From a virus, in the IMG/VR virus record IMGVR_UViG_3300005096_000069, positions 1 through 46,249 of that record: DNA of 46,249 nt; one strand, 5' to 3'. The notes beneath the pieces were generated by a model that ran no database searches, was not told where the DNA came from, and worked only from the letters and a program-made list of their open reading frames with translations. The position numbers and the translations under genes are program-made. Of this stretch, positions 1-42,740 are shown piece by piece. The stretch's first letter is position 1. Each line of letters begins with the position of its first letter.

Positions 1-639
1 CTTCGGGGCGAGAGCGGTGAATGCCCTCTTATCCCCCTCGCGCACGGCCTCGATGGACTCACGCAAGAGCTTGAACGCGGTGGACGTGGGATACTCACCG
101 CAGTAGAGCCCGTAGACGTTCCTGGATCGGTGCATAACGTCCCGCAGCTCAGAGACCTCCCGGTCCAACTCCGCGACGCGCTTCTCGGCGGCTTCGGCGC
201 GGGTCTGCTGAGTGCCACGCTCTCCATCGACTCGCTGAACGTCTCTCGCGAACTCGACGGACTCCTCCTCCGCGCGCAGCAGCTTCGACTTCAGCTTGCC
301 GGCGATGGCCGTCGTCTTCTCATCCCGCTTCTGGAGCGCGAGGATCTCGGTGCCCTTGGCGGCGATGTGCTCCCGTGCGGCGTGGATGAGGCCCTCGTCG
401 TGGGTCTTCGAGTGCTGCGCGGCGTCGATGCGAGTCTCGTACACGCGCCCCACTTCCTTGCTGCGGTCCTCGAACGATGCGATGCGCTCCCTCAGACGCT
501 CCACCTCGTCGAGCAGGGCGGGGGCAGCGTCATGTATCGCCATCATGGCCTCGCGCGCTTCCAGCTCCGACGTGTCTGCGTCGTCGAGGGATGCGAGGCA
601 GGCCCGCAACTCGGCGAGCCGCTCGGGCGTCAGTGTCAT
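1..639 (-). CDS. Coiled-coil phage protein, 3' end cut by window edge
   Basis: An ATG at 639 follows GAGGAGACAACG, a good ribosome site, and 213 codons run without a stop to base 1, so the C-terminus lies outside the window. The protein begins MTLTPERLAELRA and is mostly charged helix with heptad-like stretches around residues 45-60 and 95-160 (for example DEVERLRERI and EKRVAELDREVSELRDV). Short phage proteins with this kind of N-terminus and a long coiled coil are common in accessory regions and have no established function. It is probably co-transcribed with the genes at 667-1305. The 213 visible residues end in ALAPK. Function not recognised. Confidence 0.85.
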   Translation of the reverse strand, partial: MTLTPERLAELRACLASLDDADTSELEAREAMMAIHDAAPALLDEVERLRERIASFEDRSKEVGRVYETRIDAAQHSKTHDEGLIHAAREHIAAKGTEILALQKRDEKTTAIAGKLKSKLLRAEEESVEFARDVQRVDGERGTQQTRAEAAEKRVAELDREVSELRDVMHRSRNVYGLYCGEYPTSTAFKLLRESIEAVREGDKRAFTALAPK

Positions 640-666
640 CGTTGTCTCCTCGGTTGGTTACCAGCC

Positions 667-1005
667 CTAGTCGTCCGTGGGAGCGTCGATCTCTGCGACC
701 GGCGTCCCGTCGGGGCAGGCGATCTCCACGACAACCGAGTACGACGCCTCGATGCCGCGCAACCCCTTCCGCACCTCGATCGGCCACGGGATAGGCGCGC
801 AGTTGTCGAGTTCGCCATCGCCATCGAGCAGCTCGATCGACGCTCCCCACATCCCGCTCTTGCCGTAGAGCATGACGACATCGACGCCGCCGTCATTGGC
901 CGTGCCGACGCGAACGCGACAGGGTCGGTCGATGACGTTGAACTCCTCGCGAACGTGTCCCTCGATCTCCACGAGGTCATCGCTCGCGCCGTAGATTTTC
1001 AGCAT
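667..1005 (-). CDS. Hypothetical phage protein, 112 aa
   Basis: The start is set at ATG 1005 (MLKIYGASDD), preceded by GGAGAGAGACC; the open frame extends further upstream to 1137 but without a ribosome site and with composition unlike coding sequence. The product is acidic (ends DAPTDD) and looks like an all-beta domain with a conserved-looking core around residues 55-75 (MWGASIELLDGDGEL). No signal peptide or membrane helix is seen. It lies 27 bases before the coiled-coil gene. I recognise the style of a widespread small phage protein but cannot name a function. Confidence 0.8.
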   Translation of the reverse strand: MLKIYGASDDLVEIEGHVREEFNVIDRPCRVRVGTANDGGVDVVMLYGKSGMWGASIELLDGDGELDNCAPIPWPIEVRKGLRGIEASYSVVVEIACPDGTPVAEIDAPTDD

Positions 1006-1088
1006 GGTCTCTCTCCGTTGGTGGTGTGTTGGTTGCCCGCCCGCCTCACCGGCATGAGACGGACGGGGCTGGGCCGGGCCTGGAGGGG

Positions 1089-1305
1089 CTAGGCCGTCTT
1101 CTTCGTGGACTTCGCGCGTGGCAAGAGACGTCTCCATGCCGCGATCTCGTCACGGTGCGAGGAGATGTCGAGGTTGATCGCCGCGCGCAACCGCTGGCAC
1201 TCGATGATCGACGCCTCAAGGATCTCGATGTTCTCGTTCACGCTCTTGACGTGCTCGTCGAGCGACGGGCGCGGGGGTCGACTCGAGCGGGGCTAGGTCA
1301 TTCAT
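1089..1305 (-). pseudogene. Small helical protein gene with an apparent frameshift
   Basis: A GAGGAGACC ribosome site precedes ATG at 1305 (MNDLAPLESTPAP), but that frame stops after 29 codons. A second frame, entered near the G-runs at 1267-1277, reads SLDEHVKSVNENIEILEASI and continues to a TAG at 1089 with good coding composition and a Lys/Arg-rich end (AKSTKKTA). The span is 217 bases; removing one base gives a clean 71-residue helical protein. So either one base was added in a homopolymer, in the genome or during sequencing, or translation shifts frame here. Without the shift only a GTG inside the second frame could start it. Confidence 0.6.
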
Positions 1306-1635
1306 CGGGGGTCTCCTCTCGGGGGAACGTGGTCGCGGTCAGGTTGCGTATGGACCCGGGGCTCGAACCCGGTGCTTCACGCAGGCGGCCTTTCCCGCGT
1401 ACGTCGCAGAGGACAACCTTCGGCGGCCATGCCCCCGAAGCTATCGGGGAGCACGATCAGCGCGTGACGTCCATCCGTCGTTCCTGTCAACGACCACACC
1501 TTAAACCGCGTGGCGGTGAGACGCTAGATATACCCGAAATTATCCACCATGCGGCTGTGAGTGGGACACGTGTCCCAACTTGTCCCCCCCCTGGGTCCGG
1601 GGCCGCCAGGGGCAGAATCACCGCCAGGGAGAGGG

Positions 1636-1660
1636 TTATATATATAGGGATATAATAATT
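1636..1660 (+). promoter_or_regulatory. AT-rich promoter core with TATAAT
   Basis: In a GC-rich genome this stretch stands out: TTATATATATA is followed by TATAATAATT, with a consensus -10 hexamer TATAAT at 1651-1656 for the plus strand. No good -35 hexamer sits 16-18 bases upstream, which suggests an activated or non-sigma70 promoter, or that melting alone matters. Leftward -10-like TATATA matches also exist for the minus-strand genes. Two of the palindromes would lie in the transcribed leader, where a bound repressor could block elongation. Confidence 0.5.
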
Positions 1661-1692
1661 CCCCACCCTGGGGGGTGACAGGTTGGGACATG

Positions 1693-1713
1693 TCCCACGC
1701 TTCGTGCGTGGGA
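1693..1713. other. Strong hairpin in the leader of the primase operon
   Basis: TCCCACGC and GCGTGGGA form an 8-base-pair stem around a five-base TTCGT loop. It overlaps the right half of the second palindrome, so DNA binding and RNA folding could compete. There is no T-run after it, so it is not a standard terminator. Confidence 0.5.
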
Positions 1714-1810
1714 GTGGGACAAGTGGGTTTTGATGTGTCCCACTTCTGGCTATTCCGTCGCCGTTTCGGAGTCCCCGCCGTATGGTCGTCATTCGCCAAG
1801 GAGGGCCACC

Positions 1811-1858
1811 ATGCAGATCGGAATGGACCGTTTTCGCTCGATCGCGCTGGCCGCATGA
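1811..1858 (+). CDS. 15-residue leader peptide coupled to the primase gene
   Basis: ATG at 1811 follows an excellent ribosome site (AAGGAGGG at 1798-1805). The frame reads MQIGMDRFRSIALAA and stops with TGA at 1856-1858, so its stop overlaps the ATG of the primase gene at 1855 as ATGA. The primase start itself has no good ribosome site, so ribosomes finishing this mini-ORF probably supply its translation. The peptide need not have a function of its own. Translational coupling is an inference from the overlap. Confidence 0.6.
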   Translation: MQIGMDRFRSIALAA

Positions 1859-4794
1859 GCATCCGAGACGACGTGGCGGCGCACGGTCGCCTCGAGGATC
1901 TCATCGAGCACCTGTTCCCGGCGCGGAAGCCGTGGGTTGACGACCAGTCGATCGTCCGATGCCCGACGCCGGGGCATGAAGACTTGAACCCGTCGGCGCA
2001 GGTAGGGCGCAACGGCGCGTGGTCGTGCTACTCGTGCGGCGCGACCGGCGACGTGGTCGGGCTGCTTGGGGAGCGCGCTGGCCTCCAGAGTTTCGCGGAC
2101 ATCGCCGAGCGGATGCGCGCCGATGGGTGGCTGCCTGCCGGCGATGGCACGCCCCGCCCTGCGCCAGTACGCGCGGCTCCGGTAGAGGGAGTGACGTCCG
2201 TGACCACCGACGAGGGTCCGCGGGACGGCTGGTTCATCGAGAGCGACCCGGAGTCCTCTGCCACTTCGGCATGGCCTCCGTCCGATGGTGTGGTCAAGTC
2301 GTGCGGCTGGGTGGTGCGGGCGGGCGAGGTCCATGCGCCCATTTTCGACACTGCTCGCGATGTGTGCGGCATCAAGGTCCGCGGTGGGCGGTATGTCGCT
2401 GCGGACGGGAAGTCTCGCCTACGGGTCAGCCTGGCGCAGACGCGGGGCAAGCGGCGAGAGAAGGGGATGATCGCGACGCCGGGGTTTATTCGGGGGCAGC
2501 GTGGCCGCCTAGTGATCGTCGTCGAGGGCGAATCCGACATGGCCGCGCTTGTCAGCGCGATGATCGACGAGGGCGTGAAGGGCGTCGAGGTGGCGACGGC
2601 GTCGAACGGGGCCAATTCGGGCCTGTGCGGGCAGGAGGCGCTGTTTGTCGGGTGGCGCGTGGCGGTCGTCTATGACGCGGACGTCCCAGGCGTGAAGGGC
2701 GCTCGCAAGGTCGCCAAGATCCTCCGCGCGGTCCCGGTGCCGTGCGTCGCCCTGCCGCTGGGAGCAAACGTCACCGAGAAGGGCGGGCGCGACGTGTCCG
2801 ACTACCTGGCCGGGGGTGGCACGGCTTTCCGTCTCGTTGAGTGCGCCGAGCGTCTGCTGCGCGGAGAGTCCCCCGACGATGACGCGGACGATACCGACGT
2901 CCAGGACGACTGGGCGTCACGTGACCCTCATCCAATCCCAGTGGCCGACGGTATCCAGCGCCTCGCGCTCTCTGACATGGCCCCGGGGATGATCCACCGC
3001 TTCATGGACACGCTCTCCGCGACGCGGCAAGTCCATCGAGAGCAGGTATTCGCCTGCCTTGGCCCGGTCCTTGGCGCGGCGGCAGGCGACGCCTGGGGCA
3101 TCGAGGTCGCAGAATTCGGCGCCGAGCACGTGCCGTACAAGGAGCCATGCCTGGCCCGGTGGGCGATCTTCAGCGCGGGGTCAGGGGGGCGCAAGACCGG
3201 CACAGTGAACGCTGTCTCCGCGCCGATCCGCGAGTGGGAAGAGGAGGCGGCGGCCGTGCACCGCGAGGCCGTGGACGAGTGGGGGGCGCGAAAGGACGTG
3301 CTGAAGGGCCGGTCTAAGGCCCTCGGGGCTCAGATCGCGAGCATCGACGACCGCGCATCTGCGGATTACGAGGACGCGCTGGCTGAGCTCGTCGATGTGA
3401 ACCGCGAGCTGCGCGACGGGGAGCCGGAGCGACTGCGGATCATCGAGGACAACACAACCCCGGAGCAGTTCATGGTGTCGTGGTGCGGGTCGCTGTGCGC
3501 TCGGTCGATCATCGCGCACGAGGGGCGAGGGTTCGCGAATATCGTCCTCGGTGGATATGCAGGCAAGACGCAAGAGGCCATGATGCTGCCGTTCAGCGAC
3601 GGACTGCCTGGCTCGTATGCGCGCCGGTCCGGGGACGTATCGGTATTCTCGAACAGGCTCGTTGCATCCATCCTCCTTGCAGTCCAGCCCGACGTGATGG
3701 AAAAGTGTCTTGGATCCACGTCGATGATGACGTCGGGGTTTCTGGCGCGGTCGGCCCTCGTGTCGATCCCTTCGTACGACAAGCCTCGGCATTTGGTGGC
3801 GCGGGTCGCGATGCAGGAGGACGGGGAGGCGGTGGCGTGGTGGTCACGAGCAATCCGCGGTCTACTCGACTACCAGATACTGGAGATCGAGCATCCGGTC
3901 GGTGACGAGGCCGAGGCGGACAGGGGTTTCGGCGGGGCCGGCGAGTATGGCATCGCCGATAGCGACTCGATCGAGCGGCGGCCGGAGGTCCGGTGGCTGC
4001 GACTGGCGCCCGATGCGTTCCATTTGTATCTCGTGTACGCGCAGCGGTGCGAGAACGTGCGGGCAGCGACGTGCGACGACGGCGACGGGATGTCGGGCAT
4101 GGTGGAGAAGCAGGCGATGGCGTCGCTTCGCATGGCCGCGCTCTACCACCTGGCCGATCTGTCGGTCCGGGGGATGCTCGGGGCGGCCGATCAGCACCCG
4201 ATCACGGCGGACGCGGTCCGATGGGGGCAAGGGGCGCAGGACTGGCTGTCCTGGGAGACGCTGCGGACGATCGACGTCGTTGAGTCGAACAAATCGGAGC
4301 TGGACCTCGCCCGCCGGATCATCCGGTCGATGCAGGCCCGAATGCGGAGTGATCCGGCGGCGTCGTCGATCACGGTGCCGGACGCGATGTCGGTGCGAGA
4401 CGGCGTCGGGGAGTCAGTGACGGAGAACGCCATGCGCCTACTCGTGCGCCTGGGCTACGCGCAGATGTCTGAGGGCGAGTCGCGGCATTGGCGTGAGCGC
4501 ACGGTGGTCTACGTGATGCATCCTCGCCTGTGCGAGTTCGATGTGCCGCTCGCGGAGACGATCGACGACGCTGCTCCAGCGGAGGCGACAGCAGTCGGGG
4601 CGGTCGATCCGCGGGCCAAGCTAAACGCGGACCAGATGAAGATCCTCTTCGGGATGCTCGAGGAGGGGATGACGAAGACCGAGGCCGCTCGACATTTCGG
4701 AGTGTCGCGCAAAACCATCGGGCGCATCTTCCGCCGCAAGCAGGAGGCGGACGCGGCGGAGGCCGCAGAGGCGGCGGTCGCCGATGAATACTAG
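1855..4794 (+). CDS. Phage primase-helicase: CHC2 zinc finger, Toprim, DUF3987 ATPase, C-terminal HTH
   Basis: 979 residues starting MSIRDDVAAH. A CHC2-type primase zinc site is visible (C36-P-T-P-G-H41 and C58-x2-C61). A Toprim fold follows, with EGESD at 224-228, YDAD at 273-276 and GRDVSDYL at 311-318. From about 370 to 760 the sequence matches the DUF3987 helicase-like family, with a Walker A-like AGSGGRKT at 441-448. The last 55 residues hold a resolvase-type helix-turn-helix (KTEAARHFGVSRKTIGRIF). It should prime and unwind phage DNA at replication forks. The start at 1855 is preferred over 1675 because the longer frame runs through the operator array. It heads the rightward replication operon. 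Confidence 0.88.
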   Translation: MSIRDDVAAHGRLEDLIEHLFPARKPWVDDQSIVRCPTPGHEDLNPSAQVGRNGAWSCYSCGATGDVVGLLGERAGLQSFADIAERMRADGWLPAGDGTPRPAPVRAAPVEGVTSVTTDEGPRDGWFIESDPESSATSAWPPSDGVVKSCGWVVRAGEVHAPIFDTARDVCGIKVRGGRYVAADGKSRLRVSLAQTRGKRREKGMIATPGFIRGQRGRLVIVVEGESDMAALVSAMIDEGVKGVEVATASNGANSGLCGQEALFVGWRVAVVYDADVPGVKGARKVAKILRAVPVPCVALPLGANVTEKGGRDVSDYLAGGGTAFRLVECAERLLRGESPDDDADDTDVQDDWASRDPHPIPVADGIQRLALSDMAPGMIHRFMDTLSATRQVHREQVFACLGPVLGAAAGDAWGIEVAEFGAEHVPYKEPCLARWAIFSAGSGGRKTGTVNAVSAPIREWEEEAAAVHREAVDEWGARKDVLKGRSKALGAQIASIDDRASADYEDALAELVDVNRELRDGEPERLRIIEDNTTPEQFMVSWCGSLCARSIIAHEGRGFANIVLGGYAGKTQEAMMLPFSDGLPGSYARRSGDVSVFSNRLVASILLAVQPDVMEKCLGSTSMMTSGFLARSALVSIPSYDKPRHLVARVAMQEDGEAVAWWSRAIRGLLDYQILEIEHPVGDEAEADRGFGGAGEYGIADSDSIERRPEVRWLRLAPDAFHLYLVYAQRCENVRAATCDDGDGMSGMVEKQAMASLRMAALYHLADLSVRGMLGAADQHPITADAVRWGQGAQDWLSWETLRTIDVVESNKSELDLARRIIRSMQARMRSDPAASSITVPDAMSVRDGVGESVTENAMRLLVRLGYAQMSEGESRHWRERTVVYVMHPRLCEFDVPLAETIDDAAPAEATAVGAVDPRAKLNADQMKILFGMLEEGMTKTEAARHFGVSRKTIGRIFRRKQEADAAEAAEAAVADEY

Positions 4795-4881
4795 CGTGAC
4801 CGCATGGTACTGCGTAGGGTCGGCACTTGACCCGAGTCGGCTTGGTCTCCGGCTCACCCTGGTCTTCCTTTCGTACGCGAG

Positions 4882-4912
4882 CCCCTCGGAGTCTTCGGAT
4901 GCTGAGGGGTTT
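4882..4912 (+). terminator. Possible weak terminator hairpin after the primase gene
   Basis: CCCCTC (4882-4887) pairs with GAGGGG (4904-4909), has a C-TTCG-G cap inside, and is followed by only TTT. It sits 88 bases after the primase stop, in a 195-base gap. The short T-run makes intrinsic termination uncertain; it could partly attenuate transcription into the resolvase gene. Apart from this hairpin and the mini-leader at 4990 the gap shows nothing convincing. Confidence 0.35.
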
Positions 4913-4989
4913 CGCAATTCAAGGCAGAGCGCCGCGTCCCCGCCTAGTGGTATCCTCTGGTCTTCGCTGACTGGACCACGGAGACCGCG

Positions 4990-5019
4990 ATGAAATCAGC
5001 CAAGGCGATACTCCGATGA
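4990..5019 (+). CDS. Nine-residue mini-leader coupled to the RusA-like gene
   Basis: ATG at 4990 follows GGAGACCGCG. The frame reads MKSAKAILR and stops with TGA at 5017-5019, overlapping the ATG of the resolvase gene at 5016 as ATGA. This is the same arrangement as at 1811-1858. The resolvase ATG has no separate ribosome site. A functional peptide is unlikely; a coupling device is the simplest reading. Confidence 0.45.
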   Translation: MKSAKAILR

Positions 5020-5465
5020 GCCCGCACCCTGGCGTCTACGCATGGGTGCCCGGCAAGCCAGTCCCCTGGGCACGCCCCCGGTGCGTCGTGCGTGGGAAGT
5101 TCCCCTCGTTCTTCGAGGACAAGTCGGTGACGGCGTATCGTCGCGCGATCGCGGACACACTGGCCGTAGCGATGTCGGATCACCCGATGATGACCGGGCC
5201 CCTGTCCGCGTCCATGACGTTCACGTTCGAGCACCCGGCGGCCCAGTGGCGCAAGCGCACGCCCCTGCGGCGCGCGTGGCGTCCCAAGCGACCAGACATC
5301 GACAACCTCTCCAAGTGCGTCCTTGACGCGGCAGAGGGCGTCGTCTTCGAGGACGACGGGGCGATTGTCGAGTTGAACGTCCGCAAGATGTCTTGCGCCC
5401 AAGGCGACGAGCCCGGCCTCGTGGTGTCGTTCCGAACGCTCGAGCCGCTGGACGCGGTCGGATGA
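5016..5465 (+). CDS. rusA: RusA-family Holliday junction endodeoxyribonuclease
   Basis: 149 residues. The hallmark RusA segment is present at 92-120: RPDIDNLSK, then LDAAEGVVFEDD and GAIVEL. D94, D96, K100 and D113/D114 match the catalytic Asp and Lys pattern of the family, and the N-terminal VPGKPVPWARPR fits the first strand of RusA. The enzyme cleaves four-way DNA junctions arising in phage replication and recombination. It is coupled to the mini-leader upstream and overlaps the next gene by 4 bases (ATGA). The length is slightly above the E. coli enzyme (about 120 residues). Confidence 0.92.
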   Translation: MSPHPGVYAWVPGKPVPWARPRCVVRGKFPSFFEDKSVTAYRRAIADTLAVAMSDHPMMTGPLSASMTFTFEHPAAQWRKRTPLRRAWRPKRPDIDNLSKCVLDAAEGVVFEDDGAIVELNVRKMSCAQGDEPGLVVSFRTLEPLDAVG

Positions 5466-5710
5466 CGACGCGCGCCACGACGCCGATGTGTCGAGACTGC
5501 ACGAGCAGGATTGCCACGTGGCCCTCGCACATGCGGCAGTTCTGCTCGATACGATGCGCGGCCAATCACGCGGTTGACTCAGTCGAGTGGTGCCCGCCGT
5601 GCTCGTCGTGGGAATGCCCCTCGACCCACAAGCACCTCGCCCCTTCTGCCGCGCGCCATCGGTCGTCGGTCGCCCGTCGGCTCCTTGCCATTGTCAAGAG
5701 GACTTCATAG
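5462..5710 (+). CDS. Small Cys-rich putative zinc-binding protein
   Basis: 82 residues from ATG 5462, which overlaps the resolvase stop as ATGA. It has a CRDC pair near residue 10, further Cys residues at FCSIRC, and a second cluster CPPCSSWEC with His nearby (STHKHL). This suggests one or two zinc-stabilised knuckles. The C-terminus is basic (ARRLLAIVKRTS). It stops one base before the next ATG. Function not recognised; nucleic-acid binding is only a guess from charge and Cys pairs. Confidence 0.7.
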   Translation: MTTRATTPMCRDCTSRIATWPSHMRQFCSIRCAANHAVDSVEWCPPCSSWECPSTHKHLAPSAARHRSSVARRLLAIVKRTS

Positions 5711-5929
5711 ATGACCAAGTGCCACAAGTGCGGAACGAACGTAGTCAGCGAGCACTCAAGGAGGTCAGACGCGAAGCGGCGCCGCAATCCTGAGCGGCTC
5801 CTGTATCAGAACGCGTACCGGCGCGGCATGTACGACGGTCTCGCTGGGAACCCGCGAAAGAAGAACGAGCACGCCGCCTACGGCGTCGCGTACGACACTG
5901 CTGCCGCCCGCCGGACGCCTGACGCCTGA
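5711..5929 (+). CDS. Small basic protein with an N-terminal zinc knuckle
   Basis: 72 residues starting MTKCHKCGTNVV directly after the TAG of the preceding gene. One C-x2-C pair is followed by a basic stretch (DAKRRRNPER) and a helical GMYDGLAGNP segment. The 3' end contains a short GACGCCT tandem. Probably the last secure gene of the rightward operon. Function not recognised. Confidence 0.7.
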   Translation: MTKCHKCGTNVVSEHSRRSDAKRRRNPERLLYQNAYRRGMYDGLAGNPRKKNEHAAYGVAYDTAAARRTPDA

Positions 5930-5939
5930 CGCCTGACCG

Positions 5940-6128
5940 ATGATCCTACGCCCCTACACGAGCGATCAGCGGCGCGTACTGGCGCGCGTCGCGATCGACA
6001 TGCGGCGCGCTAGAGTCCGGGTGTTCACGCCCCGTCCCACCATCTCCGCTGACGGTCATCCGTCATCCGGCGACGAGAGTCGTCGAGCCATCGGCGCTGC
6101 GAGTCATCGCGAAAGACTGGATCGTTGA
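5940..6128 (+). CDS. Doubtful ORF at the convergent end
   Basis: A 62-codon frame starting MILRPYTSDQRR without a ribosome site. Its last 100 bases are antisense to the end of the fibre gene on the other strand. Its first 25 residues look more protein-like than the rest. It could be a small gene or a chance frame; kept because the 95-base convergent gap holds nothing else. Confidence 0.2.
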   Translation: MILRPYTSDQRRVLARVAIDMRRARVRVFTPRPTISADGHPSSGDESRRAIGAASHRERLDR

Positions 6129-7344
6129 CCCGCGACGTCAGCTCGGTCCCGGCCACGGCCTGAGCCCCGCCGGACGTCATCAAGATCGTCGCTGTGAATG
6201 TCGGAGGGTCGAACGTCGCGCTGAGTAGCCCCGCCGCTGAACCGGCCAAGGCGGCAGCCGTCGCCGTGAACGTCGGGACGCCGGTGAAGGCCGCCGACGT
6301 GGACCGAGCCCCTCCTGCCTCCACGCTGGCCGACGCCGCGAATGTGGGGGGAGTGTGAGTCGCGGACGCAGGGGCGGATGCGCCACCAGTCGCCACAGAC
6401 GCCGATGCGTCGAACGCCGGGACGACGGACGATCCGGATGCGACCGCGGACGCGCCGCCCGCCGATGCGACCGCCGACGCGGAGAACGTGCCAGCCCCGA
6501 CGAATGACGCCGTCGCGGACGCAGCTCCTCCGCCGGACGCTCCCACCACAGTGGTCGCGGTGAACGTCGGGGGAACATGAGATGCAGATGATCCGGAGGA
6601 TGAACCTCCAGACGCCCCGGACGCTGTCGCAGTGAACGTCGGGGGGGAGGAGCTCGCCGACGCGGACGAGGACGCTCCTCCGGCGCTGACTGTCGCTGAA
6701 GCCCCGCCCGGAGCCGCTCCGAAGTCCCCGCCATCGAACGAGTCCACGACCCCCGCTCTGTACCCCAGCACCCCGACGTGCCCCGAGCTGCGAGTCGTGC
6801 CGGGCGTCGCGGGGCCGTAAATCGTCGTTCCGTTGTGCTTGATCGTGACTTCTGTCCCGACCGCCTCGATGTAGATCGTCTCTCCGGCGACGTAGGCCGC
6901 CGTCAAGGTGTCGATCGTCACCGTCCCGGAGTAGAAGCGGATGCTGGCGCCACTCTCGCGCATCGCGAGGTATCCGTCCGGCTGCCCCGTACCAGCGTAC
7001 GCACTGTCGATGCGGACGCCGACGCCGCGACGGCCGGTGCTGCCGGAGTTGTTGACGACCTCGGCGCTCTGATCGGTTCCGCTACTGCCGATGACCGCTA
7101 CGGCGTAGGTGCTCGCATCCCCGACGACGGCAAACCCGTTTCCCTCGACCTCCGCAACGCCCGTCCCGCGCAAGACGTCCCACATCCCGCCGCCCGTGTC
7201 GGACGCACGCCCGTCGATTTCATCGCCGTTCGTGCCGCTGAATGCGTCGGTGAACCGGGTGCCGTGAGCAGGCGCATCCGTAGCCGCGAGCCACGGAGGA
7301 CGCACGCCCCCGAGCGCGGTTCGACGGCGAAGCACCCTCACCAC
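6025..7344 (-). CDS. Tail fibre/adhesin with lectin-like head and Ala/Ser/Gly repeats
   Basis: 439 residues, GTG start at 7344 after GAGGAGTAGTCC. Residues about 30-210 look like a concanavalin/LamG-type beta sandwich (FTDAFSGTNGDEI at the start, VTIKHNGTTIYGPATP near its end). From about 215 to 405 there are seven imperfect 24-28-residue repeats with a PPTFTAT-like core separated by Ala/Ser/Gly runs. The C-terminus has three copies of an eight-residue unit: DDSQRRWL, DDSRRRMT, DDRQRRWW. Last gene of the virion operon, so probably receptor binding or a distal fibre. Exact role unproven. Confidence 0.7.
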   Translation of the reverse strand: MVRVLRRRTALGGVRPPWLAATDAPAHGTRFTDAFSGTNGDEIDGRASDTGGGMWDVLRGTGVAEVEGNGFAVVGDASTYAVAVIGSSGTDQSAEVVNNSGSTGRRGVGVRIDSAYAGTGQPDGYLAMRESGASIRFYSGTVTIDTLTAAYVAGETIYIEAVGTEVTIKHNGTTIYGPATPGTTRSSGHVGVLGYRAGVVDSFDGGDFGAAPGGASATVSAGGASSSASASSSPPTFTATASGASGGSSSGSSASHVPPTFTATTVVGASGGGAASATASFVGAGTFSASAVASAGGASAVASGSSVVPAFDASASVATGGASAPASATHTPPTFAASASVEAGGARSTSAAFTGVPTFTATAAALAGSAAGLLSATFDPPTFTATILMTSGGAQAVAGTELTSRVNDPVFRDDSQRRWLDDSRRRMTDDRQRRWWDGA

Positions 7345-7347
7345 GGA

Positions 7348-7794
7348 CTACTCCTCGAAGTCCATCCAGAACGTGCAGTTCACCGTGACGCCCGCGGTGA
7401 CGCGGATGCCAAGTCTCCCGCCGCCCATGATCGTCTTCCCCGGGTGCGAGTAGATGACGTCGAACGACCCGCCCTGCGGGTGAACCTCGTGCGACTCGAT
7501 GATGTCGCCGGTCGTCGGCTCAGCCGTGGCGGTGTGCCGCGCCGTGGTCTGGAGCGTCTCGTCATCGGTCTCGTCGATCTTGACCGGCGTCAGAGCCGTC
7601 GTCGTGCCCGCCGTCGTCTGCCGCACAAGCTCCACGAGGACCGGCGCTTCGGTCGCGACGATGCCTGCGAGCGACACGCCCCAGCCCTTGAGCATGACGC
7701 GGTGATTAGCCGCTGCGATGAGCTGCCCGATCGTCTTGGCTGCTGTGCCCGATGCGATGGCGCTCCTGGTGATGCTGCCGTGAATTCCAGCCAT
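7348..7794 (-). CDS. Putative virion structural protein, 148 aa
   Basis: Starts MAGIHGSITRSAIASGTAAK at ATG 7794, right after a TAGGAGGCC ribosome site. The composition is beta-rich, with few charged residues, and ends TFWMDFEE. The stop lies 3 bases before the fibre gene start. It looks like the small fibre or spike accessory proteins often found beside phage adhesins, but I do not recognise a family. Its position between a beta-helix spike and the fibre suggests a place at the tail tip. Confidence 0.7.
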   Translation of the reverse strand: MAGIHGSITRSAIASGTAAKTIGQLIAAANHRVMLKGWGVSLAGIVATEAPVLVELVRQTTAGTTTALTPVKIDETDDETLQTTARHTATAEPTTGDIIESHEVHPQGGSFDVIYSHPGKTIMGGGRLGIRVTAGVTVNCTFWMDFEE

Positions 7795-7803
7795 GACGGC
7801 CTC

Positions 7804-8925
7804 CTATGAGTTCTTCGAGGATTGGTCGCCCATGAGGACGGCGCGGTGATGTCGTACGGAGCCGCCGCTTCCGCCCGCCGACGGCTCCCGCTGATACGCG
7901 CCGACGTCCGAGTACGCGATTAGCCCCGCCGACTCACCGGGGGCGCCGGAAATCAGGCGGAGGTTGCCATTCGCGGCGTCAACGAAATCGGTCGCGATGC
8001 CGCCCGTGTCCGTGGTGATCTCGCCGACGTTGAGACCATCACCGATGCCGTTTCGTGGAGTCACGTTGTCGCGCGTTCGGTTGTTGATCTCGATGACGGC
8101 ATTGTCCGCCGTCGCGGAATACTGGCTATCGAGCCACGTCGCGCAGTCGGTGACGTGATTGTCCATTAGGATGGGAGCCACGATGAACGCCTCGCTCGGG
8201 AAGCGGACGGCCTCGTCGAGGTTGTAGAACGTGCAGCTCTTCACGACGCACGGCAGCGCGGTCGCCTCGAAGGCGATCCCCACGCCGTTGTTGTTGCCAA
8301 TGACCACCGACTCGCCGACGAAGCCGTTCTGTATACCAATCAAGGGCGAGTCGGCGGTGCCCTTGACGCGGCAACCGATCACGCTGCAAAGCGTATCTCC
8401 GTTGAGTACGAAGGCGTAAGCGGTTCCCGAGCACTCAACGTCGCTGTTGATGGCGTAGAGCTCGTTGTCGCCGCGGCACCCGTAAGCCGCGGAGCTATTG
8501 GCCATGTTCAGGATCTTGCACGAGACGATGCCCCAATAGTCCGAGGATGAACCGCCAACCAACGGGGCCGCCACGGATCCGAAGATGTTGAGGTTCTGGA
8601 GGATGCTTCGGGTCGAAGGGGTCAGCGTCCCCGTCAGCGTAATCGCCGGGAAGTTCGTCGTGTCGAGCGTCCCGTCTGCGTTGCGCCCCTGCCCTTCGAG
8701 GTCGCCTATTGTGGAGTTGTATCCGCGAAAGATGACCAGCGCAGCCGCGGTGCCAGCATTCGAGATCGTGTCCGCCCCGAGAGAATACGGCCCGTCCGAT
8801 TGGACGTTTACGCGATCCCCTGCCACAGCGCTTGTCAGTGCCTCGGCAAGAGTCCACGGATCGCCTGACGTGCCCACGCCGCCACCGCCCGCAGCGTCGG
8901 TCACATACCGCTCGGTGATCGCCAT
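7804..8925 (-). CDS. Right-handed beta-helix tail spike-like protein
   Basis: 373 residues. The N-terminus (TSGDPWTLAEAL then AGDRVNVQSDG) is the standard opening of pectate-lyase-type parallel beta-helices, and the middle shows successive short turns rich in Asn, Gly and Val (VIGNNNGVGIAFE, LMDNHVTDCATWLD). Phage proteins of this fold bind and often cleave surface polysaccharides; no catalytic residues can be assigned by eye. It lies in the adhesin cluster at the end of the virion operon. It could instead be a non-enzymatic fibre. Confidence 0.75.
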   Translation of the reverse strand: MAITERYVTDAAGGGGVGTSGDPWTLAEALTSAVAGDRVNVQSDGPYSLGADTISNAGTAAALVIFRGYNSTIGDLEGQGRNADGTLDTTNFPAITLTGTLTPSTRSILQNLNIFGSVAAPLVGGSSSDYWGIVSCKILNMANSSAAYGCRGDNELYAINSDVECSGTAYAFVLNGDTLCSVIGCRVKGTADSPLIGIQNGFVGESVVIGNNNGVGIAFEATALPCVVKSCTFYNLDEAVRFPSEAFIVAPILMDNHVTDCATWLDSQYSATADNAVIEINNRTRDNVTPRNGIGDGLNVGEITTDTGGIATDFVDAANGNLRLISGAPGESAGLIAYSDVGAYQREPSAGGSGGSVRHHRAVLMGDQSSKNS

Positions 8926-8929
8926 CGGC

Positions 8930-9241
8930 CTACCTGAGCGTCCGAACCGTGGGCTTGCTCACCACGCCCGCTACGCCCGCCGCGTCGAGGTTCGCCTGGA
9001 TGCCGAGCAGCACCGTCATCATGCTCGTGATGTCCGCGCCCGAGAGGATCGAGTCGCCGTTCGCGGTGCGCCCGTCCTCCAGGATGTCCGCCGCGTCGCT
9101 CGGCACAAGCGCGGCAATCTCCGAGAACCATTTGGTCGTAGCGGCGTCGATGTCACTCTTGAGATCCCGCACGCGCTCAGAGAGCGGGCGAATGGCCTCG
9201 TTGCTGAACTTGACTGCGCGAGGGTCCGTGATTGGGGGCAT
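8930..9241 (-). CDS. Hypothetical helical virion-operon protein, 103 aa
   Basis: ATG 9241 follows CAGGAGTAACC. The protein starts MPPITDPRAVKFSNEAIRPL and is largely helical (SERVRDLKSDIDAATTKWF). It resembles a commonly seen small phage protein beginning with Pro-rich residues and a helical pair, with unknown role. The 87 bases between its start and the next gene upstream hold no complete gene. Confidence 0.7.
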   Translation of the reverse strand: MPPITDPRAVKFSNEAIRPLSERVRDLKSDIDAATTKWFSEIAALVPSDAADILEDGRTANGDSILSGADITSMMTVLLGIQANLDAAGVAGVVSKPTVRTLR

Positions 9242-9328
9242 GGTTACTCCTGGATAGCGATGAAGTCGTTGCCGTCACCGGGATCGCCGGTCAACCGACC
9301 CGCGGCGACGGGGATCTCTCAAGGAGCG

Positions 9329-9535
9329 TCACGCCCAGCCCTTGCGAGCCATGGTGCGCCGCAGGAACGCGCGCTCTGCGTCAGCTTTCCCAGACGTGTC
9401 ATCACGTATCGCCTGGAGGCGCTGGATGATCGTGTCGCGCCCGTACGTCGATGACGCCTTCGCGTGGACCTCAGGGTCCGGGATCGTTGCGCTCGCCGCG
9501 AGTCGGCTGGCCCGTTTCTCCATGTTCCAGATCAT
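9329..9535 (-). CDS. Hypothetical basic protein, 68 aa
   Basis: Starts MIWNMEKRASRLAA and overlaps the upstream gene's stop as ATGA, so it is translationally coupled to it. The product is helical and basic, ending RTMARKGWA. No motif recognised. Confidence 0.65.
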   Translation of the reverse strand: MIWNMEKRASRLAASATIPDPEVHAKASSTYGRDTIIQRLQAIRDDTSGKADAERAFLRRTMARKGWA

Positions 9536-9786
9536 TCGACTGGCTCGGCGTCTTCTGCGGCCTCGCGAGCGGCTAGCTCGGCGTTCTTGCGGTGCCGGGA
9601 CAGCGGCACTGCCGCGAACTTGCCCATGGCCCGCTGCTCGGCCGTCGGGGACTTGATCGCGGCATACGCAGCAGCCAGGCGCTTCCTCATCGACATGGCC
9701 CGCTCGTCTCCAGCCAGTGCGCGCACGACGACCTTGGCGATGTCGTGCTGAGTCGTGAGGCAGATCTTCTTCGTCTTCTCGGTCAT
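9532..9786 (-). CDS. Hypothetical helical protein, 84 aa
   Basis: Starts MTEKTKKICLTTQHDIAKVV 8 bases after the upstream gene. It is Ala/Lys/Arg-rich and helical, with an acidic tail (AAEDAEPVE). It is coupled to the following gene by a 4-base overlap. No family recognised; the pair may be structural accessory proteins. Confidence 0.65.
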   Translation of the reverse strand: MTEKTKKICLTTQHDIAKVVVRALAGDERAMSMRKRLAAAYAAIKSPTAEQRAMGKFAAVPLSRHRKNAELAAREAAEDAEPVE

Positions 9787-9794
9787 GGTGTCTC

Positions 9795-10217
9795 CTACTC
9801 GTCCTGCGGAACGGTCATCGTGAGTGACGTGATGGAGACTACCCCGCCAGCGACGATCGACTTATCGGCGAACGTCATGTTCGGCGTGTCGGCTGCCTCG
9901 CCAGCAGTCCCCTGAAGGACCACGTTGTCGTCCGAGTCGAACTCGCGGAAGTGCCCCGCGTCGCCCGATCCGTCGGCGGACGAGTCGTTGGCGATAGCGT
10001 TCGCTGTGGCGACGCCGATCACCGAATCCCCGAAGGCCGGGTCGGCATTCACTAGCGTCGCGAGCAACGTCCCGCTGTTCGCCGCCGCCGGTGTCGCAGG
10101 GGGTGCCCCCGTGCGGACCTCGATGTAACCGGCGCCAGCACCCCCGTCAACGAGATCGACGATCGCGTTGGAAGCGGCGTTGCGGGAAGCGACTGAAATC
10201 TTGGTCTCGAGAGCCAT
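9795..10217 (-). CDS. Putative virion structural protein, 140 aa
   Basis: ATG 10217 follows CCGGAGAACTCC. The protein is Ala/Gly/Val-rich and beta-like, with a segment GAGAGYIEVRTGAPPATP typical of small phage structural proteins. I recognise the style (tail or fibre-associated beta protein) but not a named family. A 55-base gap separates it from the gene upstream. Confidence 0.7.
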   Translation of the reverse strand: MALETKISVASRNAASNAIVDLVDGGAGAGYIEVRTGAPPATPAAANSGTLLATLVNADPAFGDSVIGVATANAIANDSSADGSGDAGHFREFDSDDNVVLQGTAGEAADTPNMTFADKSIVAGGVVSITSLTMTVPQDE

Positions 10218-10272
10218 GGAGTTCTCCGGGGTTGGTCATCCCATGATCGCGCACCGGGCCGAGGCGCGCAAC

Positions 10273-10512
10273 CTACGAGGTCGTGACCTTGGTCGGGGTG
10301 TGCGGCTCAGGCGTCTGGTCGTCGTAATCGACCTCGACGTCGGGGCGGGGGTCCTTGGCGTGCGCGTGCCACAGCGACCGGTCCATCGCGCCGGGGGACG
10401 GGACGATGACCTTGACCTCGGTCCCTGGGGGAGGATCGGGATTCGTGACCGTGTACGTGACGCCGCCCGCGAATGCCTCGGCCTTGGTGACCTTGCCGGT
10501 GATTGTTGCCAT
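10273..10512 (-). CDS. Hypothetical small beta protein, 79 aa
   Basis: Starts MATITGKVTKAEAFAGG. A short beta-rich N-terminus (TYTVTNPDPPPGTEVKVIV) precedes an acidic, Thr/Pro-rich tail. It begins 3 bases after the upstream membrane coiled-coil gene. Function unknown. Confidence 0.65.
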   Translation of the reverse strand: MATITGKVTKAEAFAGGVTYTVTNPDPPPGTEVKVIVPSPGAMDRSLWHAHAKDPRPDVEVDYDDQTPEPHTPTKVTTS

Positions 10513-10515
10513 GGG

Positions 10516-11163
10516 TCAGTTCCCCTGCTGGAGTAGGTGATAGCGTTCACGCAACGTCGCTGCGTGGTCCGCCTTTGTGGCGATCAGGTCAATGACGACC
10601 TCGCGCATCCACTCGACCTCCTCTGGGAGACCGCTGGCCGCGATTACGTCATCCCGAACCTTGTCGACGTCGTCCGAGAGTCGGCGATACCACTCGACCT
10701 CTCGGTCGTTCATTCGCCTCTGGGCGTCCTTGAACGCGTCGTCCTGGCCCCGCTGGTACTCGGAAGTCTCGACGCGCGCCAGGAACGCCTGCGAGAGGCG
10801 CGTCGTGCGTGCATCGTTCCTCTCTGTGTCCTGGGAGATCGTCGTTCCGAACGCGCCTCCCACGAGGCCGATGATCGTGACCGTGAGGGCGATTGGAGCC
10901 CAGTTGAACTTCCGCAGGTTGTCCGCGTTGATCCGATTGCGCTCGATGCGCTCCTCGGCCAGCCGCCGATCCGCATCCATCCTCTTTCCCATCGACGAGA
11001 ACTGGTGCTGTTGGTCTGCGATCAACCGCTCGAAGCGGTCGTTCGTGTCGCTCTCCATCCGCTCGACGCGAGCGGCGACGGCGTCCAGGGACGCCCCCAT
11101 CTTGGCGAGTTCGCGGCCAAGCTCGGCCGGGTCGTATGCCGGGCCGGTGATCTCCGGGGGCAC
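10516..11163 (-). CDS. Membrane-anchored coiled-coil protein (spanin-like candidate)
   Basis: 215 residues from a GTG at 11163, 3 bases after the upstream lipoprotein gene. Residues 1-85 are a charged helix, about 88-112 form one membrane segment (FNWAPIALTVTIIGLVGGAF), and the rest is a long charged helix (REVEWYRRLSDDVDKVRDDV). One membrane span with an extended coiled coil, next to a lipoprotein gene, is reminiscent of Rz/Rz1 spanins. However, classical i-spanins have the span at the very N-terminus, so this is only a candidate; a structural or holin-associated role is also possible. Confidence 0.6.
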   Translation of the reverse strand: MPPEITGPAYDPAELGRELAKMGASLDAVAARVERMESDTNDRFERLIADQQHQFSSMGKRMDADRRLAEERIERNRINADNLRKFNWAPIALTVTIIGLVGGAFGTTISQDTERNDARTTRLSQAFLARVETSEYQRGQDDAFKDAQRRMNDREVEWYRRLSDDVDKVRDDVIAASGLPEEVEWMREVVIDLIATKADHAATLRERYHLLQQGN

Positions 11164-11166
11164 CGG

Positions 11167-11388
11167 CTACTCTGCGTCTTCGTCGGGCGCGCTGCGCTCG
11201 TCGTCGGTCTTCGCAGCAGCGGTAGCCTTGATGGTCTCGGCCGGGTCGGCGACGACAGTATTCCCCGCGCCGGGGGAGGCGATGTTCACCGTCTGGCATC
11301 CGGCCAGGGCGAGGCCCGCGATGAAGAGGGCGACCGCTGGATAGATCCCGGTGGAGATGGTTGGCGTGGCCTTGATAAGTCCGGACAT
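11167..11388 (-). CDS. Small lipoprotein with lipobox
   Basis: 73 residues. The N-terminal signal has a hydrophobic stretch AVALFIAGLALAGC, where LAGC is a lipobox; signal peptidase II would cut before that Cys. The remaining 40 or so residues are Ala/Asp/Glu-rich and unstructured. Phage lipoproteins serve as outer-membrane spanins or in superinfection exclusion. Adjacency to a membrane coiled-coil gene favours a lysis pair, by inference only. Confidence 0.7.
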   Translation of the reverse strand: MSGLIKATPTISTGIYPAVALFIAGLALAGCQTVNIASPGAGNTVVADPAETIKATAAAKTDDERSAPDEDAE

Positions 11389-11441
11389 TGTCTCGTCCTC
11401 CGTTCGGTGGATGGCCCCATGATCGGGGCGATTTTGGAAGC

Positions 11442-11840
11442 CTACGTGTCAGACGGGCCAGCGGCGTACGCGGTCCAGTCCCACGGCTTGGACAGCGGAT
11501 CTATGGTGCCTCCGGTGACCCCGACGACGCGCGCCAAGTAGTCAGTCCCAGCGACGAATCCGTTACCGGCGACCGGGACGAACGAGAACTGCACGCGCGC
11601 CTGCACCGATTGGTACAGGAGACTGGCGTCCGTTTGAACGACGCCGAGGATCTTGCGCCTGGCCGTAGACTCGCCCGCGATGTAGAGGAGGAGCCGGACC
11701 TCGTCGTAGATCGACAGATCCACGCCCTCGATCTCGTCAGCGATGACGTCAGTGATGAGGCCCATCCACGTCGCGAGGTCGCCCAGGTATAACTCCCTGA
11801 AGACCTCTGCGTCGCGCTTCTCAGTTCCGACGTGTGGCAT
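11442..11840 (-). CDS. Hypothetical tail-region protein, 132 aa
   Basis: Starts MPHVGTEKRDAEVFRELYLG and continues with an acidic helical region (ITDVIADEIEGVDLSIYDEV) and a beta-rich C-terminal half (ARVQFSFVPVAGNGFVAG). It sits between the 974-residue tail protein and the lipoprotein, with gaps of 88 and 53 bases on either side. No family recognised. Confidence 0.65.
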   Translation of the reverse strand: MPHVGTEKRDAEVFRELYLGDLATWMGLITDVIADEIEGVDLSIYDEVRLLLYIAGESTARRKILGVVQTDASLLYQSVQARVQFSFVPVAGNGFVAGTDYLARVVGVTGGTIDPLSKPWDWTAYAAGPSDT

Positions 11841-11928
11841 GGTCCCAGGGTAGCGCGGCGCGGCAGATCACGATACCCGCTCGATGACGGGGGGGCTCAC
11901 CTGGCGCCTCGACTCTTCCGTCCGTGCC

Positions 11929-14853
11929 TCAGTAGATCCCCCACGAGGAGCCATCCCATATGACCGTCGCCATGTCGTACTGGCTCGCAAGCTCGAGGGT
12001 TGGCAGGCCGTCGATGAGCTCCGAGCCCTCGCCCAAGATGAGCACCTCGAACGCCGAGCCGTCGATGCGCTTGACCTGGTACTGCTTGCCAGCGGCCAGC
12101 CCAGACGGGAGGACGCATTCGACGTCGTTCCCCGTGGCGTCTACGCGGATGACGTCCGATCGCTCACCGACCGTCGTGTCGGCAGAGATGTCCTCGAAGG
12201 CGACGACGCGCGCCGTCTCGGCGCCGGTGACGACCTCGCGGACGACCGTTTCCGTCCCATCCGCAGCAACGTACTTCTCCGTATACGTCCCGGTGTCTTG
12301 GTTGTACTCCATGACCTCGCCGCGGGGCTTACCGTCGGTCAGGTCGGGAGACCCGTGCGCCATCTTGACGCCCGGTCCCCAGATCACCGACGTTTCGGAG
12401 ATGTCCAGGTCATCCGGAACGTACCCGGCGCCCACGTCCGTCAGGTCCACCTCTGGGGGGAGGATCATCATGCCTCCGCTCGCCGTCCCCCCGGGGCTTC
12501 GGGACTTCCCCGGCTCCTGCGTGTACGCATGCCCCGACGACTGCTCGCCTGGGTTCATGTACTGCGGCGACGCGGTGGCCCCACCTATCTGGACGCCGAA
12601 CGAGTGACCGCGCCATACGAGAGGTGCGTTCTTGCCGAACCACTTTGCCTGGTTGGGGTCGAGCCCCGGATAGTGGGGGAAGTTGGGCAGCCCGTGCCCG
12701 TACAGCGGCGCGCGACCGCCGAAGATCGGCGATGCGAATTCGAGGTGAGTGTGCGCCCGCCGGTCGGTCGCCCCGAGGTCTGACATCTGCCCGCTGAACA
12801 TGATCTCGATTGTCGGGACATCGACGAGCGACTCGCCGTCCTTGCCGTCGGGGATGACCTTTCCCTTGCCGAGCCGGTATCCGCCGCCGTACGCGCCCCC
12901 GTGGCCGGGGAATACCTCGAACGGGTATCCCCCGTCGTCCCCGTCGTCCTCCTCGCCCAGGCGGATCGGGCGGCCCCCTGGGTTCGGATGCGGGGCATGC
13001 CCTGTGCCCTTCGTCCATCCCTTATTCCCAGCACCTCCCGGGTCGTCGTCGCCGTCATCCTCGTCATCCTCGTCATCCTCGTCATCCTCGTCGTCGTCCT
13101 TGTCCTTGCCCTCGCCGTACTTGTAACCGCCGCCGCGCGCTCCACCGGCCTTCGGGATTGGATCCTTGACGCTGTCTCCACCGGCCCAGTCGTCGTCTGG
13201 GTCGATGACGCCACCATTCCCACCCGGCTCGGGTTCGCTGCCAGCGCCCCCGTCCGACTGCCCCCCGCCATCGCCTCCACCGTTAGCCCCGCCGCCCCCC
13301 TTTGCGGGCACTGGGGTTCCCGGTGGGCCAGCGTCGGTCCCACCGTCGGCCCACTTGATGCCTTCGCCAGGGGCGGCCCCGAGGCCGAACTCACCGACGC
13401 CCTCGCCGTCTCCCTGGATGTACGAGACCCCACCACCGTTGCTCCCTCCGAACCCAGGAAATGGGGTGCTGCCGGGACTAGTTGTTGGTCCGCCGTTCGG
13501 CGATCCTGGATTGCCTGGATTTCCCGCTGTTGGCCCACCAGAGTCCGGCCCGCCGGTGATCGGGCCTTTTATGGGGCCAGTCCCTCCGCCTGGGTTATCG
13601 GCTACAGGGTCCTGGGGGACGTCTACGGGCTCCTCCCCGCCGTCCTCTCCGATGATGGACGTCGTCCACCATTTCCATTTTCCCTGTTCCGTCTTGGATC
13701 CACCGTCTCGCGGCCACTTGTACTCCTGCCCTGCGTCCCATCCCATGTGAACGAGGACCGGATATGTCGAGTCGCCCGGGTCCGGCCAGTCCTCCTCGAA
13801 CTGCATCGGTCCGTCGTGATCGAGGATGCGGAAGAACGACAGGCCAGACAAGCCGACGGCCGAGATCGTGTTCCCATCCGCGTCCGATCCCATCGTCTGC
13901 TTGCCGAGGACGTCGATCGGCCCACCGTCTCGGACGCTCGTCGCGCCGAGCATCGTCTTTGCTCCGTTGCCGCCCTTGTCAGCGACGAGACCGCCGATGC
14001 CTCCGCCCTGGCCGGTCACGCCGATGTTCCACGCGAGCGAGTTGGCGCGATTCCCCTGGAACGACAGCTCTCCCGATGGGCGACGAACCACGCGCATCAT
14101 CGTGGACAGAGACGCGCCCCGCGACTTACTGATCGACCCGCCGACGAGGTCATGCACGTCAGTGGACATCAGCTCAGGCCCGCCCGCATTCGATGCGATC
14201 AGGCGCGGGTCGCCATGGAGGAAGACCGGGGCGTTCGCCGTTTCGTCGGTGCCGCCGATGACCGCCCCGATCGTCCCTCCGGGGACATAGCCCCACGGGG
14301 ACTTGAGGGACCGCTCGCTGAACCGATCATCCTCGGAATACCCCTTCAGGATCGGGAGCATCTTTTGTGACGGGGGCGCGTAGGTCTTGTTCTTCGTCGG
14401 CTCCGGGGGGAGCTTGGGCTTGTCCGATGTCGGCGATCCGCCCTGGTTCCCGTACCTGCTGGGAGGGTTTGTCTTGGGGTCGACGCTGTTGCCACCGCCC
14501 GTGATCGGCCCCTTCGGCTTGCGAGATTCGATCGGAACCTCGCCCGCTGGGCTCTCGCCGCTCCCGCCTCCGCCTCCGCCCTTGACGCGCACGGCGTATG
14601 CTGACGACCACGAACCGACGAGCTCGCGCTCCTCCCCTGCGGGCCAGTAGACCCAGCAGTTCCAGTCCCCACGCGTGCTCGGATCTTCGAGGTAGTGCCC
14701 AAGTTCTCCGGCCGACGTCAGTCGCCCCTTGACGCGCACGCCGAAAACGCCAGCGCGCATATGCAGGGGCAGGCCGCGGTCGGCGAACCCATGATCTTGC
14801 ATGGCGATGATGCCCAGTCCGTTCGGGGTGAGGGACTCGTTTAGCTTCGACAT
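11929..14853 (-). CDS. Large Gly/Asp-rich tail tip or fibre protein, 974 aa
   Basis: Starts MSKLNESLTPNGLGIIAMQD. The N-terminal 100 residues look folded (ELGHYLEDPSTRGDWNCWVY). Long Gly/Pro/Ser/Asn linkers follow, with a run of Gly at about 92-97 and a very acidic tract near residues 585-600 (DEDDEDDEDDEDD) coded by a nine-base tandem. The last 90 residues (VECVLPSGLAAGKQYQVKR to ATVIWDGSSWGIY) match a beta domain found at the end of many phage fibres. Placed after the tail hub gene, it is probably a tail-tip or fibre protein. Calcium binding by the acidic tract is a guess. Confidence 0.7.
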   Translation of the reverse strand: MSKLNESLTPNGLGIIAMQDHGFADRGLPLHMRAGVFGVRVKGRLTSAGELGHYLEDPSTRGDWNCWVYWPAGEERELVGSWSSAYAVRVKGGGGGGSGESPAGEVPIESRKPKGPITGGGNSVDPKTNPPSRYGNQGGSPTSDKPKLPPEPTKNKTYAPPSQKMLPILKGYSEDDRFSERSLKSPWGYVPGGTIGAVIGGTDETANAPVFLHGDPRLIASNAGGPELMSTDVHDLVGGSISKSRGASLSTMMRVVRRPSGELSFQGNRANSLAWNIGVTGQGGGIGGLVADKGGNGAKTMLGATSVRDGGPIDVLGKQTMGSDADGNTISAVGLSGLSFFRILDHDGPMQFEEDWPDPGDSTYPVLVHMGWDAGQEYKWPRDGGSKTEQGKWKWWTTSIIGEDGGEEPVDVPQDPVADNPGGGTGPIKGPITGGPDSGGPTAGNPGNPGSPNGGPTTSPGSTPFPGFGGSNGGGVSYIQGDGEGVGEFGLGAAPGEGIKWADGGTDAGPPGTPVPAKGGGGANGGGDGGGQSDGGAGSEPEPGGNGGVIDPDDDWAGGDSVKDPIPKAGGARGGGYKYGEGKDKDDDEDDEDDEDDEDDGDDDPGGAGNKGWTKGTGHAPHPNPGGRPIRLGEEDDGDDGGYPFEVFPGHGGAYGGGYRLGKGKVIPDGKDGESLVDVPTIEIMFSGQMSDLGATDRRAHTHLEFASPIFGGRAPLYGHGLPNFPHYPGLDPNQAKWFGKNAPLVWRGHSFGVQIGGATASPQYMNPGEQSSGHAYTQEPGKSRSPGGTASGGMMILPPEVDLTDVGAGYVPDDLDISETSVIWGPGVKMAHGSPDLTDGKPRGEVMEYNQDTGTYTEKYVAADGTETVVREVVTGAETARVVAFEDISADTTVGERSDVIRVDATGNDVECVLPSGLAAGKQYQVKRIDGSAFEVLILGEGSELIDGLPTLELASQYDMATVIWDGSSWGIY
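13054..13089. repeat. Nine-base tandem coding an acidic tract
   Basis: Four exact copies of GTCATCCTC (minus strand GAGGATGAC) run on into GTC repeats. In the large tail gene they code Glu-Asp-Asp units. Copy number could change by slippage without shifting the frame. Confidence 0.8.
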
Positions 14854-23768: not shown

Positions 23769-23840
23769 TGGAGGCGGGGACAGGAGTCGAACCTGTAGGG
23801 CGTGGGGTATGAACCCTCGCTGGGACCGTCCCTCCCCGTC
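23769..23840 (-). tRNA. Compact tRNA-Met(CAT)-like gene with reduced D-arm
   Basis: The 72-base minus-strand sequence folds as a tRNA. Acceptor GACGGGG pairs with CCCCGCC (one A-C mismatch) and is followed by T and an encoded CCA. The T-arm is ACAGG-TTCGACT-CCTGT, with five perfect pairs. The anticodon loop TTCATAC gives anticodon CAT with T33, on a stem GCGAGGG/CCCACGC with one A-A mismatch. The D-arm is only GGGA-CGG-TCCC, with a three-base loop, and one base links it to the acceptor. It fills the gap after the major capsid gene. It may be functional, degenerate, or a tRNA mimic. Confidence 0.6.
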
Positions 23841-33762: not shown

Positions 33763-33812
33763 GTCGGTTTCCTCGTGGCAGACAGGAGCGGTCCGTGTAG
33801 TCGCGTGCGGCG

Positions 33813-34115
33813 TTACGTCTCGTCGCACATCCCGCAGTATAACGTGTCCCCGTCGATGACTCGGCCGCACCCGTGCTTACAGGTCGTGTGCTCGATCCTG
33901 AAGACGGCGTCGGGATCGGCGAATGCGACCTCATCCTCGATCTTGTTGTCGGCCGTGAATTCAATCCGGATGACCGGCGTCCCGTGGGAGCAGAGGGTCG
34001 CCGAGTGAACCGTGACAAGGCCGAACTCTGAGCCGCGGGGGTGTTCCATCTTGTCGTACTCCCGCAGGTCCTTCGCGAGGAGGCTACCCATTGAGGGACC
34101 TGTTCGGTTCGGCAT
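33813..34115 (-). CDS. Small protein with C-terminal zinc ribbon, 100 aa
   Basis: Starts MPNRTGPSMGSLLAKDLREY. The first half is polar. The last 25 residues hold a zinc ribbon: CKHGCGRVIDGDTLYCGMC, with four Cys in two pairs. Gaps of about 50 bases flank it. Function unknown; nucleic-acid or protein binding are equally possible. Confidence 0.75.
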   Translation of the reverse strand: MPNRTGPSMGSLLAKDLREYDKMEHPRGSEFGLVTVHSATLCSHGTPVIRIEFTADNKIEDEVAFADPDAVFRIEHTTCKHGCGRVIDGDTLYCGMCDET

Positions 34116-42586: not shown

Positions 42587-42740
42587 GCACCGGACCGTAA
42601 TCGCACCGCGTCGGCCTGTCTAGAGTATTATCGTAATTCTATTGGTGTGCGCGGCGTGCGCGTGGCGTACGATCCCGGCATGAGTGGCGCGCGTCGCGCC
42701 TTCGCGGTCGAGGCCGAGCGGGGCATGGGAGGATGGGAAG
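42587..42740. promoter_or_regulatory. Divergent early promoter region
   Basis: The 154 bases between the HTH gene and the helicase-methylase gene contain the only AT-rich patch nearby (AGAGTATTATCGTAATTCTATTGG at about 42622-42645, given here as a position because it exceeds a short motif in part). Related CGTAAT words occur at about 42594 and 42633. The plus-strand gene has its ribosome site GGGAGGATGGGAAG just before ATG 42741. Promoters on both strands are inferred. Confidence 0.5.

Follow-up and report, generated by a model that had tools for sequence, protein, structure and literature searches.

An array of GGGACA half-sites between divergent genes of a phage-like record raises the question of what the array does and which protein reads it. 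The window, by which we mean the whole stretch of DNA analyzed, comprises all 46,249 bases of an IMG/VR virus record. Within it, 7 GGGACA half-sites are packed into positions 1563–1741 (180 bp), between minus-strand genes on the left, which show clear start signals, and a plus-strand primase gene on the right. A preliminary description had listed two palindromes with differing spacing, an extra half-site, and a wide inverted pair, all of which were found where it had placed them; absent from it was the imperfect inverted repeat with 29-nt arms that joins both sides of the array. The half-sites form a left group (1562 plus, 1571 minus, 1581 minus) and a right group (1684 plus, 1691 minus, 1715 plus, 1736 minus), and the spacing of pairs ranges from 0 to 14 nt. 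The features of the region are:

1540–1548, plus strand: TTATCCACC, with one mismatch to the DnaA box consensus; the sole such site in the window, where about 2 are expected by chance
1562–1577, no strand: inverted half-site pair TGGGACA-CG-TGTCCCA
1568–1693, no strand: imperfect dyad with 29-nt arms (1568–1596 and 1665–1693, 86% complementary) centered near 1630 and flanking the AT-rich core
1581–1587, minus strand: extra half-site TGTCCCC (TGTCCC exact at 1581–1586, seventh base different), 10 nt past the previous same-orientation copy
1630–1665, no strand: AT-rich core, a candidate DNA-unwinding element that may also hold promoters
1684–1697, no strand: inverted half-site pair TGGGACATGTCCCA, without a spacer
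1715–1742, no strand: wide inverted half-site pair, the 7-mers separated by 14 nt

A chance-level frequency of the half-site elsewhere had been named as an outcome that would refute the proposed role of the array. GGGACA occurs 26 times in the window on both strands, which is the chance level (mean 29.0 in 100 shuffles), and yet this count does not refute an array confined to a single locus. The largest 180 bp cluster in 300 first-order Markov simulations contained 4 copies, versus the 7 observed, and among all canonical hexamers in the window, denser clustering was found only for CGCGCG and for six words of one tandem repeat. The clustering thus rules out a chance origin of the array, despite the chance-level count in the window as a whole. 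A tandem array of AGCCGT (19.5 copies, 90% matches) is present at 41853–41969.

No 30-mer in the window is richer in AT (fraction 0.77) than the one that the array surrounds; this 30-mer starts at 1630–1636, between the two half-site groups, and the core contains the sole plus-strand TATAAT of the window (1651–1656). A sigma-70-like match to a minus-strand promoter is also present in the array region. The GC skew of the window gave no sharp origin signal, which counts against reading the array as an origin. An Rfam search matched no known RNA element. A tRNA suspected by eye near 1350–1390 was not confirmed by ARAGORN, which found a single tRNA gene in the window, a tRNA-Met on the minus strand at 23769–23840.

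The gene to the right of the array encodes a protein that we designate P0001:

1811–1858, plus strand: possible 15-aa leader ORF, MQIGMDRFRSIALAA, with a strong ribosome site, AAGGAGGG, upstream; its stop codon shares bases with the primase start (ATGA); its role as a leader is putative
1855–4794, plus strand: primase-helicase P0001 (979 aa), the proposed initiator, identified by domain and PHROG matches
4618–4734, plus strand: C-terminal HTH of P0001 (HTH_7, residues 922–960, slightly under the Pfam cut-off), the proposed iteron-binding part

P0001 has a CHC2 zinc finger and a Toprim domain (both sub-threshold), a DUF3987 helicase domain (E 2e-33), and the C-terminal HTH; its PHROG matches are DNA helicase and primase. 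Modeling of its last 179 residues from the single sequence gave two units, one resembling a winged helix and the other made of three helices, with a mean pLDDT of 70, and a structure search with this model, which is of moderate confidence, found no significant match in the PDB. The HTH resembles that of L148 (hhalign probability 75%; BLASTP E 1e-4), an AAA_25-group protein that has a TGGGACA array. The gene for P0001 is followed by that for RusA, and no 7-mer cluster was found around the 3' end of the P0001 gene (4300–5800).

Cooperative binding, looping, and a replication origin had all been put forward for the array, and it is the last of these that comparison with other elements supports. 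In SaPIs and other PICIs, the origin adjoins the gene for the initiator helicase and has an AT-rich region flanked by two groups of short iterons (PMC6092414). SaPI Rep binds iterons beside its own gene by its C-terminal domain, and the C-terminal domain of Cch2 binds a putative origin in repeats downstream (PMC7581432). From this recognition of an origin by a C-terminal domain in SaPI Rep (PMC7581432), and therefore by analogy, we consider that the array is probably the iteron-type replication origin of this phage, bound by the neighboring DUF3987 primase-helicase P0001. In the sequence of binding, melting, origin activity, and autoregulation that we infer, the TGGGACA half-site would be the iteron, with copies on either side of an AT-rich unwinding element; P0001 would bind the half-sites via its C-terminal HTH, melt the AT-rich core once bound, and then load the helicase. 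Binding may also repress transcription of the primase, as the array separates divergent genes and contains promoter-like sequence.

The window shares with SaPI and PICI elements (Rep or Pri-Rep) two iteron sets, an AT-rich region, and an adjacent gene for a proposed initiator helicase. Its half-sites are mostly inverted, unlike those of SaPIs and PICIs. The initiator helicase of these elements has a C-terminal DNA-binding domain; the possible counterparts in P0001 are DUF3987 and the sub-threshold HTH_7. A PICI origin lies immediately 3' of the initiator gene, whereas the array of the window (1562–1742) precedes the gene start at 1855, in a phage-like record. This departure from the 3' rule counts against the origin reading, and because the 5' position is atypical, we do not class the array as a PICI origin. 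The iteron of Cch2 is AAGTG, and its helicase family differs from that of P0001; SCCmec Cch belongs to DUF927, a family that adjoins several TGGGACA arrays. A stretch of CFT073 considered as an E. coli PICI origin turned out to be a lambdoid prophage and was excluded from the comparison. The alpha protein of phage P4 is at once a primase, a helicase, and an origin-binding protein, and it resembles the proposed arrangement, with a different iteron sequence and helicase type. In phage lambda, iterons lie beside an AT-rich region, as in the window, but the initiator O is without a helicase, and its origin is inside its own gene.

The preliminary description had suggested looking for the array upstream of primase genes in related phages; in other phages, motif scans and groups of neighboring genes show that arrays of this half-site are common close to genes for primase-helicases. 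At least 120 stretches in viral contigs match GTGGGACA..TGTCCCAC, and among the matches listed, 65 of 120 have at least four TGGGACA copies in 300 bp. A pattern of three TGGGACA half-sites gave at least 120 matches in viral contigs and at least 120 in genome contigs, versus 16 and 14 in the whole viral collection for the reversed word ACAGGGT and the unrelated word GACGTGA, controls whose motif composition was only partly matched to that of TGGGACA. Related phages enter these counts more than once. By record title, the genome-contig matches listed span several bacterial phyla; 46 of 120 listed genome loci hold just the three half-sites used as the query, so some of these matches are due to chance. 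The variant TGGAACA, predicted from the family-based sample described below, gave at least 120 matches. For the 14 control-motif arrays with at least five sites, the closest large ORF had the array at its 3' end in 8 cases and at its 5' end in 1, and 5 arrays had no large ORF nearby; two of the adjoining ORFs, when examined, encoded VapE. As control-motif arrays too are mostly 3', repeat clusters at 3' ends are general and the word varies.

The genes that adjoin TGGGACA arrays were compared in 142 arrays with at least six copies in 300 bp (141 fetched loci, among the matches listed, and the window), of which 131 were non-identical. Neighbors were grouped by BLAST, with domain labels taken from representatives. 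The PriCT/Prim-Pol-AAA_25 group adjoins 47 of 142 arrays and the VapE/DUF927 group 30, with both as neighbors in 3; terminase or tail genes adjoin 35, comprising 30 in the terminase-upstream class only and 5 that also have a VapE/DUF927 neighbor; the other 38 fall in no class. The 30 arrays of the terminase-upstream class only and the 38 in no class, some of which adjoin housekeeping genes, count against the origin reading. The BLAST clusters included no small protein common to all arrays. Within the PriCT/Prim-Pol-AAA_25 and VapE/DUF927 groups, 81 of 82 gene-array pairs have the array at the 3' terminus of the gene or within its final fifth (the exception is L248). In L014, L028, L034, and their relatives, arrays lie within about the last tenth of the primase-helicase gene and encode the tail past a winged-helix-like stretch. 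Between neighboring half-sites of the same orientation, the commonest distance is 13 nt for terminase-class arrays and 9 nt for the other three classes. Support for an AT core is uneven, as the block is in the top 5% of its locus for AT in just 7 of 44 non-identical PriCT/AAA_25 arrays. The motif scan also yielded a DUF3987 protein, L207, whose gene is followed on its 3' side by a large TGGGACA array enclosing an AT-rich core, and L056, which matches phrog_2373, as P0001 does, and whose array, like that of the window, is on the 5' side of the gene, at a distance of 42 nt in L056.

We also examined a sample that was not selected by motif, in which VapE, DUF3987, and DUF927 genes were taken by protein family from sampled genomes (111 loci), a cluster being at least five copies of a 7-mer around a gene end. 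PriCT_2 loci were omitted from the iteron count because their stored flanks were judged too short for the gene end. Iteron-like clusters are frequent at the 3' ends of such genes (43 of 111 loci), compared with 4 loci that have one at the 5' end, and shuffles gave about 0. After three arrays from seed genomes were set aside, 40 were kept for the word count: GGNACA is the commonest five-base pattern (7/40), and GGGACA is one of the two commonest hexamers (4/40, all at DUF927 loci). No DUF3987 locus of this sample (n = 51) had TGGGACA as its leading cluster, which counts against the origin reading, and the many other iterons in this sample rule out strict universality of the word.

Within a family of GGNACA-type iterons, TGGGACA could be the most frequent allele; the family would be an origin code of non-homologous primase-helicases (DUF3987, DUF927, VapE, PriCT/AAA_25) in mobile elements from several bacterial phyla, maintained either through exchange of an HTH module or through convergence. 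We advance this proposal tentatively. A single universal initiator was not supported, as comparison of C-terminal HMMs across replicase classes gave no probability above 20% save for a few single-sequence pairs. A literature search, conducted mostly at title level and in text passages of PMC6092414, PMC7581432, and PMC7145576, gave no account of TGGGACA as a repeat in phage origins. If the proposal is correct, a seven-base word points to where replication begins in many uncultured phages and islands, and it ties these origins to initiators that lack homology as enzymes. The question it raises is whether one origin code is common to unrelated self-loading helicases, and by which domain it is recognized.

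The half-sites might instead be operators, through which a phage repressor or another HTH regulator controls divergent promoters in the AT core without any role in replication. The position of the array between minus-strand genes and the plus-strand primase fits such a role, as do the TATAAT and the sigma-70-like match within it and the presence of a 74-aa HTH protein encoded elsewhere in the window (42362–42586). A lysogeny repressor would be expected to have its gene adjacent and its operators over a promoter, and what is seen here is a divergent region with promoter-like sequence. Palindromes of operator-like appearance do occur among the scan matches: in L009, L059 (which encodes TerL), L068, and L116, repeated GTGGGACA-TGTCCCAC palindromes are scattered between genes, in the manner of operators or stoperators. 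Against this, arrays of the same half-site lie within or just 3' of replicase genes and are unlikely to serve promoters there, and 3' clusters far exceed 5' ones in the sample not chosen by motif; we therefore regard a purely regulatory array as unlikely. The cognate protein is more likely to be P0001, the primase-helicase encoded next to the array, which has a C-terminal HTH, than either of the HTH candidates named in the preliminary description: the product of 32767–33870 has no Pfam or PHROG match, and the ORF at 42362–42586, with a sub-threshold HTH_23 match, is still a candidate.

A packaging site (cos or pac) bound by the terminase small subunit is suggested by enterobacterial prophages (L004, L010, L119, L301, and other terminase-class loci), in which TGGGACA arrays directly precede TerS-TerL with no large replicase adjoining. 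Those arrays are possibly cosB-like sites or displaced origins, and they show that TGGGACA can occur in a setting other than replicase genes. In the window, however, TerL (29355–31859) is far from the array, whose neighbor is a primase-helicase, and packaging is a very improbable function here. Less probable still, to the point of being almost negligible, is a partition site of the ParB/parS type. Like parS, one palindrome has a CACGTG center, but the second does not; the array lacks the uniform palindromes of parS, the spacing varying as noted above, and no ParB was identified among the 20 window ORFs scanned.

Close relatives of the window were not found by P0001 or RusA, and a megablast search of positions 1–12000 against the phage collection gave no match. 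TerL gave four distant relatives, none with an array, in records of 8 to 32 kb that may be fragments. Six of the 10 large window proteins scanned, mostly from minus-strand genes, have no PHROG match, and we therefore regard the window as a divergent phage. It also encodes, at 42684–45014, a fusion protein that joins a SNF2-type helicase with an N6/N4 DNA methylase domain.
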